Positions 55,376 through 61,255 of a DNA stretch of 64,000 nucleotides are shown one piece after another. The position numbers and the translations under genes were made by a program. Under the pieces are notes generated by a model. That model saw nothing but the letters and a program-made list of their open reading frames with translations. It was not told the DNA's origin and made no database searches. The stretch's first letter is position 1. Each line of letters begins with the position of its first letter. Source of the DNA: Ignavibacteriales bacterium (GTDB lineage: Bacteria; Bacteroidota; Ignavibacteria; Ignavibacteriales; Melioribacteraceae); assembly GCA_020061355.1 (NCBI GenBank), contig JAGUYK010000040.1, positions 62,001-126,000 on the forward strand, read 5' to 3'.

Positions 55376-56599
55376 TCATTCGAACCATGAAACAATTTCA
55401 AATGAGCCGGTACCCGGGAAGAACGGGGGACTTGCAATCATAAATCGATCATCGTAACGATACCTTTTTGAAAAACCATTAATTATAGTTGAGACTCCAC
55501 CTGAAGTACTAAATTGTCCTACTGGTCCCCTGGCATTTTGTATAACACCACCATACAATAAAATTGAGCCAGCAACCGGTCGATTTTGATAATTTTCCGC
55601 CTGAAAAGACCCTGATTCTGAATAGATAGAAGCTTGTACTCTTATATTATTATTGTTTGCGGCATTATCGGTAATTATAATATCATCCTTAGCAACAATA
55701 CCTAACATATCCTGGGAGTTCGGATTAACTTGCGGATCGGTATTATAAAAAAGATCATCATCTAAATATACTTTGCCTCTGCTGGAACCATCCGCTCCAA
55801 TAGTATATTTCCCTTTCACTCTTCCCTTAACACGAAGGTTAGCATTTTCAGCAAAGATGGCACCATTTGGTGCAAAGGTTGAAGCGAGAACATAAGTCCA
55901 GGCTGATGTTGTATTATATCTATACCTTAGACTATCGCCTCTGAATTCAAGATAGACCGTTGATTGTCCTGTAAATTTATATCCGCCGGAAGTAGCTGCA
56001 CTACTAAGATTTGTAACACCGTTGGATGGAATATCGATATGTACACCGGTTTGAAAACCTCCTAAGAATTGCGGTTGTGCACTGTTACTGTGTTTTACAA
56101 GACTTCCATCTAATGTAACTTTACCCATAAAAACCGGTCTATCGGCAACGCGTAGTTGTCCGTTTGTATGCAGTGGACCCCAAACTGTATCTGTTGTAGT
56201 CCACCAGATATTTGCAGATTCACTATGCGAAAAGTAAGCGTACTTGGAAAAGGTGCTGGGTCTAAGTACAATTCGGATTGTGGAAGATAAGTTTCCAAAA
56301 GTACCGGTTGAGGTAAGTTGTTTAATGTTTTGATATGCGTCAAGAGTTGTAAGTGTTGCGGTAATTGTTCCGCCGTCAAAATTATAATTAAATGTTTGAT
56401 CTACTAGAGATCCGTTCAAAAAGAGTTGATTTGTTACAAGGTTAACACCGGTAGCAGCCGTATGATGTGCTTTTGCATCGTAATAGTAATTGATAAAATT
56501 ATCTACAGTAGCAGTAGCCATGCTGTTAAAATTTCTTCCAGCAACCATAAAGATAATGCTGAATCCAAGAACTAATAATATTGTTCCTTTACCACCCAT
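55376..56599 (-). CDS. PilX-like large pseudopilin (cassette A)
   Basis: A 407-residue protein, third gene of cassette A. It starts MGGKGTILLVLGFSIIFMVAG, a membrane anchor (residues 5-20), then a helical segment YYYDAKAHHTAATGVNLVTN and a large beta-rich domain with the FQTGVHIDIPSNGV and FAPNGAIFAENANLRVKG segments. It ends FFPGTGSFEIVSWFE, a tail nearly identical to its paralogue. The N-terminus lacks the prepilin GFTLxE signal. I infer a minor-pilin-like role by position (third in a PilV-PilW-PilX order) and anchor style. The family may correspond to an unnamed Bacteroidota domain; I am not certain which. Confidence 0.65.
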   Translation of the reverse strand: MGGKGTILLVLGFSIIFMVAGRNFNSMATATVDNFINYYYDAKAHHTAATGVNLVTNQLFLNGSLVDQTFNYNFDGGTITATLTTLDAYQNIKQLTSTGTFGNLSSTIRIVLRPSTFSKYAYFSHSESANIWWTTTDTVWGPLHTNGQLRVADRPVFMGKVTLDGSLVKHSNSAQPQFLGGFQTGVHIDIPSNGVTNLSSAATSGGYKFTGQSTVYLEFRGDSLRYRYNTTSAWTYVLASTFAPNGAIFAENANLRVKGRVKGKYTIGADGSSRGKVYLDDDLFYNTDPQVNPNSQDMLGIVAKDDIIITDNAANNNNIRVQASIYSESGSFQAENYQNRPVAGSILLYGGVIQNARGPVGQFSTSGGVSTIINGFSKRYRYDDRFMIASPPFFPGTGSFEIVSWFE

Positions 56600-56608
56600 T
56601 GCGTTCTC

Positions 56609-57238
56609 CTACCTAAGAGAAAAATTTCTTGCCGGTAATCTAACCTGACGCCAAATAACTCTTTTGTCTGCTGCATAATCGTTTCCATAAGCTGCGGGAT
56701 TCTCAACAGCCATATCAATCTGAATCGCAGCAATTCCTAATGGTGGAGAAGAAGGCATTGTTATAATCCTGTTTCCACTAGCGTCGAAATAAGTTAGTTT
56801 GAATTGTGTAATACCTAAGTTAGAACCGCGGGCTGGATTTGAGTTTATTACCCGATACAATAATCGATCGAATGGATTTGGTGTAGCGGTTAAAGAATCG
56901 GTTGAACTTAGATAATAGTGTAATGTATCAACAATTCCGTCACCATAAGTATTAGGAGAGGTAACAATATCCGTTAGAAATGATATTCTGTTCGAATCCG
57001 CATAAATAATAGCTAAAGCGGGATTTGGGATTGCCTGCCAATTTAAACAGTAGCCGATTTTTCTAAAATCATATTCTAAAAGCTTAACCACTTCTACAAG
57101 ATTTTGTTGAACTATCTGTTCACCGCTGTAATGGTAATTATTTTGCACAGCAGAATCATTCATTCGTAATAGAATCATTAATAGCAAGCCGCCGATAATT
57201 GTGGATCCCAATATGTCTAGAAGTACACTAAACCCCAT
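56609..57238 (-). CDS. PilW-like pseudopilin (cassette A)
   Basis: A 209-residue protein, second gene of cassette A, start ATG 57238 four bases after the previous stop. It opens MGFSVLLDILGSTIIGGLLLM, a membrane helix beginning at a GF pair as in cleaved pilins, but with only Met-Gly before it and Asp at position 6 after the Phe instead of Glu at 5. Next comes VEVVKLLEYDFRKIGYC, close to the PilW helix segment (LLxxDLRMAGY). The C-terminus VIWRQVRLPARNFSLR is conserved in the paralogue. Its position between PilV- and PilX-like proteins supports the call. Confidence 0.7.
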   Translation of the reverse strand: MGFSVLLDILGSTIIGGLLLMILLRMNDSAVQNNYHYSGEQIVQQNLVEVVKLLEYDFRKIGYCLNWQAIPNPALAIIYADSNRISFLTDIVTSPNTYGDGIVDTLHYYLSSTDSLTATPNPFDRLLYRVINSNPARGSNLGITQFKLTYFDASGNRIITMPSSPPLGIAAIQIDMAVENPAAYGNDYAADKRVIWRQVRLPARNFSLR

Positions 57239-57241
57239 TTC

Positions 57242-57769
57242 TCACCTGAAATACCAATAACTGTAGATTGTTGACATCCTTATTGTATCCACCATCCCCG
57301 GGCTAACTACTTTTACCATCATTCTTTTATGCCAGGTTCTTTGAGTAGACACATTGTTTGGATTAGTTAATGCAACATAATCCACTCTGCAATAAGTGTT
57401 GAAAATTATTTTTCTATCAGTACCTTCAAATGTTAAAGTATCAAGTTTTGGATTGGTTCTAAAACAATTATAATCGTCAAAATCGTTAAAGCTATCGGGA
57501 TAATTCCTGTTTTCTCCGGTTTCTAATCCAATTACATTAATATTCGTTAATACAGTAAGAGAATTAACAGCTGTTGTATCGGTATTATGATCGAATGCCT
57601 TACCGGTAGCTTTTTCAATTATGGAAGTAGCAAGCGATGTCGCTAATATGCCATAACGATTATCAATCATAGTTGAATTGGTTGTTATTAAGCCCCGGTT
57701 AGTTGTAAGTATAACCATGCTTAAAAGAAAGATTGCACCAATCGTTATTAACATTTGTCCGGTATTCAT
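57242..57769 (-). CDS. PilV-like pseudopilin (cassette A)
   Basis: A 175-residue protein, first gene of cassette A. The N-terminus MNTGQMLITIGAIFLLSMVIL is an unprocessed-looking membrane anchor; then ATSLATSIIEKATGKAFD, a helix that fits PilV/type IV minor-pilin amphipathic helices. The FNDFDDYNCF segment resembles the conserved DDFDDYNG loop of pilins. The C-terminal IYSYWYFR tail is shared with the paralogue. A ribosome-binding site TTGGTAATTA precedes the ATG, the same spacing as in cassette B. Confidence 0.68.
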   Translation of the reverse strand: MNTGQMLITIGAIFLLSMVILTTNRGLITTNSTMIDNRYGILATSLATSIIEKATGKAFDHNTDTTAVNSLTVLTNINVIGLETGENRNYPDSFNDFDDYNCFRTNPKLDTLTFEGTDRKIIFNTYCRVDYVALTNPNNVSTQRTWHKRMMVKVVSPGMVDTIRMSTIYSYWYFR

Positions 57770-57938
57770 TTAATTACCAATTAATCCCGATAAAAGATAA
57801 AGAAAATGTCAACTTATAGCTACTCAGTTAGTGTGCTTAAAATCATGTAAGTAAATTGGGCTGGATAAAAGATCAATTGAAATTTCAGAATTTAAATTTA
57901 GAAGTGCTGATGTAGGTTTGTATTTTCTAATGAAATGA

Positions 57939-59315
57939 CTACTCAAACCAGGAAACCACTTCAAAATTCTGAGTATGAGGGAAATATGGAGGGACTGTTA
58001 ATAAAAAACGTGTATCGTATGTGTGAACAAACTTTAATCCCTTGATCGGTGTACTTCCCGAATATGTTGCGGTTTGCCTCATATCTTTTGCAATTAAACC
58101 ACCAAGAATATTCCAGCGACCCAAATACGCTTGATCGATCAGCCCGTCTTCCGGACCAATATTGCCGGTAAGCGAGAACATCGAGGCATGAGTATTTATA
58201 TCTTTCCCGCGTGTTGTTGCATTATCTTTTATTCTGATGTTACTCTCGGCAATTATCCCCAGCATATCATTTGAAGCTGGTATTGTTCGCGGGTCATCTT
58301 TATAAACAATGTTATCTTCGAAAAAGACCTGACCTGCTCCACTAGTATTCATTTTTGTTGCAACTATTGTAAGTTTTCCGTCGAGAGTTCCTTTGGTATA
58401 AATATTTCCTCTTTCAACATAGATAACACCGCTGGGTGCAAATGTAGTTATAGCAACGGTCTTTGGGGAGCTCCACACACCTCCGTTTATGCTCTGACTG
58501 TAAGTAACGCTTGCATCTGAATTAAAATAGAGCCTTACATCAGTTTTATAGTTATTGCCGGTTGTATCTCTAAAAATCTTGCTTGCATGTGATCTTAATC
58601 CTGTAGTATCATATTGAAGTGGTAAGTCGACACCGGTTTCGAAGCCGCTATAAAATTTTGGATCAGCAGGTGTTCCTTGTTTTTTGAGACCATTCTTCGT
58701 TGTGACCTTTCCCCAAAAAACAGGCGTACCATAAGTAGTTAGTTTGGCATTTACATGGAAAGGACCATTAAAAGTATCACCAGTAGCAGGATAGGCATTC
58801 ATAGAAGAATAAAAATTACCAAACTTTGCAAAGTTGCTTGGTCGTAATTGTACAACAATAGTTTTGGTTAAACCTTGATAAGTACCTTCAGAAATTATGG
58901 TTGCAATTTGGTCGTCAAATCCTCCTCCACCGCATGGACCAAGATAATCACCATGAGCTAAATGGGCATCAACAGCACTTGATGCAATAGTAATGGTGTG
59001 TCCACCATCGAAAGATGGTTTATGGCATAAAGTAACTTTTCCTGTTAGACCTATAATATTATTGCTTACAATTACATTTATTACACCACCGGCAAAACTT
59101 AAATTGGAATATCCCGCTTCCCAATATTTATCAATAAAAATCTGGTTTGCTGCCATGTTGGCGCCAGAGATAGCAATGCTATGAGCAACTGCATCAACAT
59201 AATATTTCACTTCATTATCAACAGCTCGTGTTGAAAGTCCGCTAAAATTTTGTCCTACGACAAGGAAAATAAGACTAAAACCTAAGACCAATAATATTGA
59301 AGCTTTTCCGCCCAT
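57939..59315 (-). CDS. PilX-like large pseudopilin with CHKP module (cassette B)
   Basis: A 458-residue paralogue of the PilX-like protein at 55376. It starts MGGKASILLVLGFSLIFLVVG and ends NFEVVSWFE. Shared domains are the helix VKYYVDAVAHSIAISGANMAANQ and the beta segments FETGVDLPLQYD and FAPSGVIYVERG. Residues about 93-130 form a module absent from cassette A, VTLCHKPSFDGG...HLAHGDYLGPCG, with Cys97 and Cys128, similar to a recurring secreted-protein module (CHKP...AHLAHGD..GPC). It lies downstream of the second PilW-like protein by seven bases. Confidence 0.68.
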   Translation of the reverse strand: MGGKASILLVLGFSLIFLVVGQNFSGLSTRAVDNEVKYYVDAVAHSIAISGANMAANQIFIDKYWEAGYSNLSFAGGVINVIVSNNIIGLTGKVTLCHKPSFDGGHTITIASSAVDAHLAHGDYLGPCGGGGFDDQIATIISEGTYQGLTKTIVVQLRPSNFAKFGNFYSSMNAYPATGDTFNGPFHVNAKLTTYGTPVFWGKVTTKNGLKKQGTPADPKFYSGFETGVDLPLQYDTTGLRSHASKIFRDTTGNNYKTDVRLYFNSDASVTYSQSINGGVWSSPKTVAITTFAPSGVIYVERGNIYTKGTLDGKLTIVATKMNTSGAGQVFFEDNIVYKDDPRTIPASNDMLGIIAESNIRIKDNATTRGKDINTHASMFSLTGNIGPEDGLIDQAYLGRWNILGGLIAKDMRQTATYSGSTPIKGLKFVHTYDTRFLLTVPPYFPHTQNFEVVSWFE

Positions 59316-59322
59316 AATTTTT

Positions 59323-59922
59323 TTACCTGTTTCTAAGATTGCGAGCAGCTAATCTAATCTGCCGCCAGAAAACCGTTGAGTACTCATTATCGTAAGCTAC
59401 CGTGCTTTCTATTTTTATATCAATTTGCATTGTATAGATTGCACTTGTGACAGTTATTGGAAAGGGAAGCTGCTGTCCAAGTGCATTGTAATATGTTAAT
59501 TGAAACTTTGTAACGCCAAGATTTGAACCACCGGGGATTTCGTTGTTTATTACTCTATAAAGCAACCGGTCTCTTGGATTTGGAGTGGCCGTTAAAGAAT
59601 CGGGCGAACCAAGAAAATATCTGAGTGTATCAACATTTTCATCAGCATCTACATCGGTCAAAAACTCAATACTAATTGAATCAGCTGTGAGAATTGCTAG
59701 TGAAGGATCCGGAATTTTTTCCCAATCCTTACAAAAACCGATTTTTCTAAAATCATATTCTAATAATTGTACTACTTCGACAAGGCTTTGCTGAACAATA
59801 AGCTCGCCACCGTAATTATACGTGTTCTTTACTGAAGTATCGTTTAATCTAAGGAGAATTAAAAATAACATTCCTCCTACGATTGTTGAACCTAATATGT
59901 CTATTATAGTACTAAAGCCCAT
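59323..59922 (-). CDS. PilW-like pseudopilin (cassette B)
   Basis: A 199-residue paralogue of the gene at 56609. I chose the ATG at 59922 (MGFSTIIDILGS) because a CAGGT ribosome-binding site lies about eight bases upstream and the spacing matches cassette A. A longer start at 59943 would add MVFQVIF. The helix VEVVQLLEYDFRKIGFC is the PilW-like segment. The C-terminus VFWRQIRLAARNLRNR matches cassette A. Its GF start with a two-residue leader and Asp at position 6 is again non-canonical. Confidence 0.72.
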   Translation of the reverse strand: MGFSTIIDILGSTIVGGMLFLILLRLNDTSVKNTYNYGGELIVQQSLVEVVQLLEYDFRKIGFCKDWEKIPDPSLAILTADSISIEFLTDVDADENVDTLRYFLGSPDSLTATPNPRDRLLYRVINNEIPGGSNLGVTKFQLTYYNALGQQLPFPITVTSAIYTMQIDIKIESTVAYDNEYSTVFWRQIRLAARNLRNR

Positions 59923-59927
59923 AAATA

Positions 59928-60431
59928 TTACCTGAAATACCAATAACTAAAAATTGAATAAAGTTTTATTGTATCAGCCATTGAGGGACTTGTAACAGTT
60001 ACTGTAATTCTTTTATGCCAGGTCTTACTTGTTGCTTCCGCACTAGGATTAGAAGGAGAAATGTACCTCACTTGACAGCTTGCATTGAATACTGCCGATT
60101 GAAAGGTTGCATCACCGGCAGTTGAACGCGAATATCCATTAAAATCATCGAAGTCATTGAAATTTGAATACACCTCGCCGGTCTCCGGACCTAAACTTGT
60201 TATGGCTGTCAAACTTTCTATTGAACTAATCGATGTTGTGTCTGTTGCATTATCAAAGGATTTACTATTAGCTTCCTCAATAATTGATGTGGCAAACGAA
60301 ACTGCTAATACTCCAAATTTTGTGTCGAGCATAACTGAACTTGTACTGAAGAAACTATTGTTAACCCTTAATATCACAAGCGACAACAACATCAACGCAG
60401 CAATTGTTATTAACATCTGTCCGGTATTCAT
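59928..60431 (-). CDS. PilV-like pseudopilin (cassette B)
   Basis: A 167-residue paralogue of the gene at 57242, first gene of cassette B. It starts MNTGQMLITIAALMLLSLVIL and carries ATSIIEEANSKSFD, FNDFDDFNGYSRS and the terminal IFSYWYFR, all shared with cassette A. The two genes differ mainly in the middle. Its stop lies five bases before the start of the PilW-like gene. A 236-base upstream region contains the start of transcription for cassette B; no promoter match was found. Confidence 0.7.
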   Translation of the reverse strand: MNTGQMLITIAALMLLSLVILRVNNSFFSTSSVMLDTKFGVLAVSFATSIIEEANSKSFDNATDTTSISSIESLTAITSLGPETGEVYSNFNDFDDFNGYSRSTAGDATFQSAVFNASCQVRYISPSNPSAEATSKTWHKRITVTVTSPSMADTIKLYSIFSYWYFR

Positions 60432-60667: not shown

Positions 60668-61255
60668 ATGGACCCGATTAATCTACTAGTTGCAATAATT
60701 CTTTTTATTTCTATTTCGGCGAATTGGGGCGGTGCCCGTAAAGGATTAAAAACCTCAATTACCAGGGTTATTGATAAGCCTGATACTTTTTTACAAAGGA
60801 CTCCTCCAAATATATCTGCGATTTCACTTATTATAATAATTATTGGCATTTTTGGTATCGGAACATTATCAAATCAAAACGAATCATGGGTTCAAATCGT
60901 TAGAATTATTGGATTAGGCATGTTTGCAGTTTTTTCATGGCTGCAGGTTGTTGCATATAAATCGCTCGGTAATTCATATGCACCAGATATTGTTATTCTG
61001 AAAGATCATAAACTTTTTACCGGTGGAGTCTATAAATTCATTCGTCATCCGCAATATATCTCTCAAGTAATAAGTGATCTTGGCGCTGGTTTGGCTTTAA
61101 TGAGTTACCTGGTTGTGCCGATTGTCTTACTTTTAGAAATCCCGCTTTTTATAATGAGAGCATCTCTAGAGGAAAGGATGCTTGAGAAACATTTTCAGAA
61201 TGAATATGTTGAATACAAAAAGAGAAGCGGCTTTATTTTTCCTTTTATCGGTTAA
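60668..61255 (+). CDS. ICMT-like (isoprenylcysteine carboxylmethyltransferase family) membrane protein
   Basis: A 195-residue membrane protein with four or five helices. The conserved C-terminal region GGVYKFIRHPQYISQVISDLG and LEERMLEKHFQNEYVEYKKRSG is the phospholipid- and AdoMet-binding signature of ICMT/PEMT-like methyltransferases. The start ATG at 60668 has a CAGGAC site six bases upstream. Bacterial members methylate diverse lipids or small molecules, so the substrate is open. It lies six bases before the amidase gene on the same strand and may be co-transcribed with it. Confidence 0.85.
   Translation: MDPINLLVAIILFISISANWGGARKGLKTSITRVIDKPDTFLQRTPPNISAISLIIIIIGIFGIGTLSNQNESWVQIVRIIGLGMFAVFSWLQVVAYKSLGNSYAPDIVILKDHKLFTGGVYKFIRHPQYISQVISDLGAGLALMSYLVVPIVLLLEIPLFIMRASLEERMLEKHFQNEYVEYKKRSGFIFPFIG

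Follow-up and report, generated by a model that had tools for sequence, protein, structure and literature searches.

How can a bacterium build a type IV pilus when its pilins open without a leader peptide and its genome yields no enzyme to cut one? The question is raised by six open reading frames (ORFs) in a 64,000-nucleotide stretch of DNA (the window; contig JAGUYK010000040.1, positions 62,001 to 126,000) from an Ignavibacteriales bacterium. In the ORF list they form two tandem three-gene cassettes on the – strand, B (60431-57939) and A (57769-55376), each encoding a PilV-like, a PilW-like and a PilX-like protein; all six lie where an earlier note had placed them, on one strand and in the same order twice. 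Their order, PilV-PilW-PilX, is the canonical order of a minor-pilin triplet. We conclude that the six proteins are probably minor pilins, forming the tip complexes of a type IV pilus that is independent of prepilin peptidase and whose pilins are made at mature length. The suggestion of the earlier note, that they were minor pilins of an unusual, possibly unprocessed system, is supported by the fold of PilW, by an unlinked pilus machine, by the absence of a detected prepilin peptidase and by leaderless start sites.

The triplet proteins and a pilus machine in the same genome

Foldseek returned no significant match for the models of PilW from the window and of the major pilin. Alignment of the Foldseek candidates with VIA-align placed PilW closest to GspJ/XcpW-type chains of type II secretion systems (T2SS) and to the Thermus pilin TTHA1219, and the best matches of the major pilin were type IV pilus pilins. 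On these models PilW has the GspJ/PilW fold, in agreement with the expectation that its predicted fold would be related to pilin or pseudopilin domains, and the major pilin, less strongly, has a pilin fold. Sequence profiles searched against the PDB were too weak to use: TTHA1219 came up for PilW at E 0.83 and a Geobacter pilin for the major pilin at E 0.79, in both cases below unrelated chains, while PilV gave no match and PilX one unrelated weak match. Among the triplet proteins, the only Pfam match over the cut-off was DUF4900 (PF16241) in PilX-A (31.4 bits, cut-off 29.4); PilX-B scored 23.6 bits. An NCBIfam scan of the triplet proteins gave nothing meaningful. Two of 14 control genomes, those of Deinobacterium chartae and Thermotoga maritima, also gave a DUF4900 match, which exceeded the cut-off in one of them; the domain may occupy a similar tip position there. 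A phage origin of the triplets was set aside, as no PHROGs match scored below E 0.08.

The A and B copies are 51% (PilV), 60% (PilW) and 40% (PilX) identical in the alignments and are paralogues. Their conserved tails were confirmed: SYWYFR occurs twice, and WRQVRLPARN pairs with WRQIRLAARN and FEIVSWFE with FEVVSWFE. Two further signatures said to recall minor pilins stand in their original form in the A copies; the PilW-like segment reads LLEYDFRKIGYC in A and LLEYDFRKIGFC in B, and the FDDYN loop of PilV-A is FDDFN in PilV-B.

The source genome (3.69 Mb, 99.88% complete) holds PilB, the extension ATPase (PF00437, E 8.9e-103), the platform protein PilC (PF00482, E 3.8e-27), PilT, with a predicted role in retraction (PF00437, E 6.2e-35), and an outer-membrane secretin (PF00263, E 3.2e-23) adjoining the T2SSE genes. 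PilN matched at E 5.3e-7 towards the C-terminal end of a protein of 520 aa, a position that suggests PilM and PilN may be one protein, although the PilM part gave no match; PilO was a weak match only (E 0.18), ranked below two unrelated chains. The only two T2SSE matches of the genome (E <= 0.001) and the secretin beside them lie on a contig other than that of the triplets. The earlier observation that no secretin, ATPase or prepilin peptidase gene is nearby therefore holds as far as tested, given that not every gene of the window was family-searched and that the genome was not searched for further secretins. Of the unlinked genes that the earlier note had suggested looking for, pilB and pilQ were found and pilD was not: a whole-genome search with the Peptidase_A24 profile PF01478 gave no match.

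Pilin start sites without leaders

The conserved N-termini are short of any leader. Starts read MGQQQLL in the major pilin, MNTGQ in PilV and MGFST in PilW, with MGGK also among the conserved starts. Major pilins open M/V/L-G-x-Q-Q-L/I-L in 197 of 199 cases, the other two being cut by the end of the locus, and five loci fetched from outside the class likewise encode a major pilin that opens MGQQQLL. Between the preceding in-frame stop and the conserved start there was no ATG, GTG or TTG in 186/197 major pilins, 32/35 PilV, 32/34 PilW and 28/30 PilX, counts whose motif filters favour conserved starts. Rows left out of them were 2/199 major pilins (locus end), 2/37 PilV (no motif match), 3/37 PilW (two cut, one without the motif) and 5/35 PilX (three cut, two without the motif); the counts exclude the six genes of the window and include the major pilins of the source genome and the triplet on its contig 9. 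In 125/197 major pilins the gap from stop to start was at most four codons. The 197 contain the same genes from two collections, and 166 are distinct in DNA; all of these 166 share Gly2, Gln4, Gln5 and Leu7, which are encoded by varying codons. A Shine-Dalgarno (SD)-like motif lies at –17 to –5 in 135/165 genes, as against 3-12/165 in windows from –25 upstream, and at –16 to –4 it was observed 136 times compared to 38.5 on shuffling. Because of the start-codon counts, the fixed residues with varying codons and the SD-like motif, translation most likely begins at the conserved N-terminus.

The triplet genes of the window show the same. Both pilV genes have an in-frame TAA directly before the ATG. 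For PilW-B the ORF list opens at TTG 59943, inside pilV and seven codons upstream of ATG 59922; the latter is the start common to the paralogue and the orthologues, and the TTG is a possible but unlikely start. Canonical prepilins in the source genome were rejected as a candidate, since a search with the prepilin-signal profile PF07963 found none.

Residue 5 (counting Met as 1) is Gln in the major pilin, where no Glu occurs at this position, and in most PilV; in the PilV alignment (A3) M1 is invariant and Q5 is present in at least 90%. The PilV of bacterium SM23_31 (L140:8177-8662) opens MNTGE; its Glu takes the place of the Gln5 seen in most others, and it could be an intermediate. In PilW the acidic residue is mostly at position 6 or 8, with D8 in at least 90% of alignment A2, and, provided that there is no early gap in the alignment to 9a1f chain S (begun with residue 4 on residue 1), D8 would correspond to position 5. 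Because the pilin families disagree on a single register, we make no claim to an exact +1 equivalent.

Prepilin peptidase across the class and phylum

We surveyed 197 genomes of the class Ignavibacteria, each at least 90% complete, with PF01478 as the single profile for the prepilin peptidase; of 14 control genomes this profile matched in 12 and gave no match in 2. The major pilin was present in 104/197 genomes, and no Peptidase_A24 (A24) was found in 96 of these 104. A24 occurred in 8/197 genomes, all eight with the major pilin. A 247-genome sample of the phylum gave a similar picture, with the major-pilin family in 87 genomes, A24 in 35 and both in 10, leaving 77/87 in which PF01478 found no A24.

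In seven of the eight class genomes with A24 the gene adjoins a different PilB, and in the eighth (G089) the contig ends. We examined 13 A24 loci, ten from these eight genomes and three from genomes of the named loci described below, among which A24 was present in 3/21 tested, including those of L144 and of the Calditrichota locus L130 and not that of L149. A regular-expression search found canonical prepilins (such as GFSLTELM, GFTLIELM and GYTLIETL) in 9/13 A24 loci and none in L154, L155, L163 and L164; no strong PilB was found in L162 and L164. Identity between the PilBs linked to A24 (11 loci) and the PilB of the pilus is 39-43%. A tree was built from 26 PilBs of pilus operons, 11 A24-linked PilBs and 6 PilTs, with long branches flagged by the tool; three groups separate in it, with support of 100/99 for the A24 group, 100/100 for PilT and 87/75 for the leaderless group. 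L163 and L164 are the A24 loci of the L144 and L130 genomes, and in L163 the PilB forms a long branch. The A24 loci as a whole are a control from within the class, whose members make normal prepilins when the enzyme is present.

Linkage of the triplet and the machine in relatives

That the triplet is more than a set of chance ORFs follows from its recurrence, since the PilW family is present in 106/197 class genomes. These include all 104 with the major pilin (Fisher P 7e-55 over 197 genomes, relatedness not corrected for), and 102 of the 104 have T2SSE with E < 1e-30. Major-pilin matches number up to ten per genome. The major-pilin family extends beyond the class, which contributes the minority of carriers in the phylum sample (51 of 87 lie outside).

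Named relatives were 79 loci kept from the best 80 of 390. Their record titles are mainly Ignavibacteria, Melioribacter/Melioribacteraceae and Bacteroidetes bacterium, with a few Chlorobiota and two Calditrichota. PilC is encoded in 61/79 and PilB in 60/79, several loci being too short to show either. The triplet lies between pilB and pilT in L149 (Calditrichota) and in L144, a metagenome-assembled genome (MAG) that groups with L149 in the PilB tree. Outside the class, triplet matches directly follow pilB in L173, and in L177 three ORFs with pilB on one side and pilT on the other resemble the triplet by eye, judged by their position and N-terminus; blast gave no match for them. In L118, L134, L141 and L143 all three members lie upstream of the major pilin on the opposite strand. 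The major pilins of L172, L176 and L179 are unlinked, so the operon does not always include the shaft gene. At L179:6206-8346 the orphan major pilin MGTQQLLLILVG is followed by two ORFs that resemble, by eye, an extracytoplasmic function (ECF) sigma factor and a zinc-finger anti-sigma protein. At L186:6213-11385 and L180:6837-10614, another genome of the family carries the same tandem triplet pair and one carries PilV-PilW-PilX-PilX, so that tip cassettes are both duplicated and reshuffled.

A model for assembly and its alternatives

In the model that we favour, the start codon of each pilin would coincide with the mature N-terminus or lie no more than about three residues away from it, and the pilins would insert in the inner membrane via their N-terminal hydrophobic helix. 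Methionine aminopeptidase trims Met where residue 2 is small; at most the initiator Met would be removed, by this enzyme, where residue 2 is Gly. The unlinked PilB and PilC would then polymerise the pilins without cleavage, PilMN and PilO would provide alignment, the filament would pass through PilQ, and PilT would retract it. Because there are several triplets per genome, we conjecture that tandem triplets supply exchangeable tips on one shaft. Judged by gene content the system would work like a type IV pilus and is not a standard member, prepilin processing not having been found. A surface filament is the function that we infer. The broader proposal, to which we lean by a little, is that a major branch of type IV pili (in Ignavibacteria, other Bacteroidota and Calditrichota) lacks prepilin processing, with the start codon setting the N-terminus, methionine aminopeptidase as the only trimmer and Gln5 paired with an uncut N-terminus.

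The apparatus could instead be a type II-like secretion pseudopilus or a DNA-uptake pilus, not a surface pilus. The affinity of PilW to GspJ/XcpW-type chains and TTHA1219 would fit, as would a PilM-PilN fusion, suggested by the position of the PilN match, which we take to be like GspL. What makes this unlikely is the PilT-type ATPase of the operon, since the T2SS is described as having arisen when PilT was lost (PMC10191384), together with the up to ten major-pilin matches per genome and the type IV pilin matches of the major pilin. Processing might also persist cryptically, with a very short leader (MG, MNTG) cut by a peptidase other than A24. The major pilin always has Gly at residue 2, PilV often has it at residue 4, and Gly or Ala at –1 is the rule for type III signal peptide (SPIII) leaders (PMC10191384). 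The PilV variants MNTSQ, MNSSQ and MSGSQ, plus MNANQ from an ORF named by eye, however, put Ser or Asn at the would-be –1, PilW has no Gly at one fixed distance before the helix, and a leader of 2-4 residues would have no basic charge, unlike the canonical leaders of A24-bearing relatives; we therefore consider a short leader quite improbable.

We give very little weight to a prepilin peptidase that is present and was missed through assembly gaps or divergence. It is true that two of the 14 controls were negative, that most genomes are drafts and that PF01478 was the only profile. Yet none of the eight A24 hits is to G012, G024, G035, G037, G038 or G136, which are single-contig genomes with the major pilin, A24 is detected in the same class where present, and because there is no leader the enzyme would have nothing to cut. 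Least credible is a decayed, non-functional remnant, a reading compatible with the lack of experimental data and with the judgement of the Melioribacter roseus authors that the pilus gene set was probably incomplete (PMC3534657). Against it stand the constraint on the N-terminus in 166 distinct genes, the operon genes kept together in many named loci and the co-occurrence of major pilin and PilW.

Relation to known systems

The type IVa pilus shares with this system its gene content apart from PilD, the pilin folds and the order of the minor-pilin triplet; the present system differs in having no detected peptidase in most pilin-bearing class genomes, no leader peptides, Gln at residue 5 and an apparently single PilM/PilN protein. 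Glu5 itself is often, not always, present in pilins, and a review regards the prepilin peptidase and the leader as core to the type IV filament superfamily and the peptidase as part of the ancestral machine (PMC10191384). Compared to GspI-GspJ-GspK (XcpV-XcpW-XcpX) and TTHA1219, the triplet proteins have no leader and PilX has a DUF4900 region (over the cut-off in one of the two window copies); compared to the pseudopilins, the machine here includes PilT. Divergent T2SS have been noted in Bacteroidetes (PMC6668835). The Cytophaga-type T2SS (CHU_3191-CHU_3201) belongs to the same broad bacterial group and has related components, and was set aside as the identity of this system, since it has a Peptidase_A24, CHU_3197 (PMC5553014), and the A24-linked PilBs form another clade; we infer that the A24-linked loci examined here are of this type. 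MSHA pilus loci also have no peptidase gene, and the genomes that carry them are described as holding a peptidase from another system (PMC6668835), whereas our search of the entire source genome gave none.

For M. roseus, the account of pilus genes in the 2013 genome paper lists pilT, pilQ, pilB and pilC, and neither pilA nor pilD is reported there (PMC3534657). In an Ignavibacteriales MAG, e-pili were called by similarity to Geobacter PilA, and a pilin with a normal leader is thereby reported (PMC7399161). Our literature search, with most subscription papers and all preprints outside its reach, found no title or abstract on leaderless pilins.

Neighbouring methyltransferase and significance

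Divergent from the triplets lies a gene for a membrane methyltransferase of the PEMT/ICMT family (Table 1). Such a gene is beside the triplet in 7/19 short loci (L004-L022) and in 3/7 longer triplet loci (L181, L184 and L186), and was not found in the longer loci L180 (of the same family), L182, L183 and L185; in several relatives it is accompanied by epimerase and amidase genes. The link is a lead only, and could be simple neighbourhood conservation. That a free-standing membrane methyltransferase replaces the methylase half of PilD in one family is a guess with very long odds.

Table 1. Triplet genes and the adjoining methyltransferase gene, in window coordinates.
Feature	Coordinates	Strand	Length	Start	Evidence
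Triplet B gene 1, PilV/GspI-like minor pilin	59928..60431	–	167 aa	MNTGQMLITI	ORF, alignment A3; PilV identity from gene order
Triplet B gene 2, PilW/GspJ-like minor pilin	59323..59922	–	199 aa	MGFSTIIDILG	ATG at 59922
Triplet B gene 3, PilX/GspK-position protein	57939..59315	–	458 aa	MGGKASILLVLGFS	DUF4900 below cut-off; alignment A4
Triplet A gene 1, PilV-like	57242..57769	–	175 aa	MNTGQMLITIGAI	ORF, sequence, alignment A3
Triplet A gene 2, PilW-like	56609..57238	–	209 aa	MGFSVLLDILGS	ORF, alignment A2
Triplet A gene 3, PilX-position protein	55376..56599	–	407 aa	MGGKGTILLVLGFS	DUF4900 over cut-off; alignment A4
PEMT/ICMT-family membrane methyltransferase, divergent from triplet	60668..61255	+	195 aa		PF04191 E 3.4e-14, PF04140 E 3.2e-13

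A processing step thought universal in type IV pili thus seems to be missing in a large bacterial group. Because pilin finders look for a leader, surveys of pili may miss these bacteria, and the proteins described here are offered as candidates for the missing pilins of the M. roseus set that has no pilA (PMC3534657). Such bacteria are reported to be fairly abundant in anode biofilms (PMC7399161); should the operon produce pili, they would carry a surface fibre that has gone unrecognised. What the leader and N-methylation are for has been called a mystery (PMC10191384). If our reading is true, a natural system without peptidase and leader would show that cleavage is dispensable for the insertion, extraction and assembly of pilins, and the purpose of both leader and N-methylation would become directly testable by comparison.

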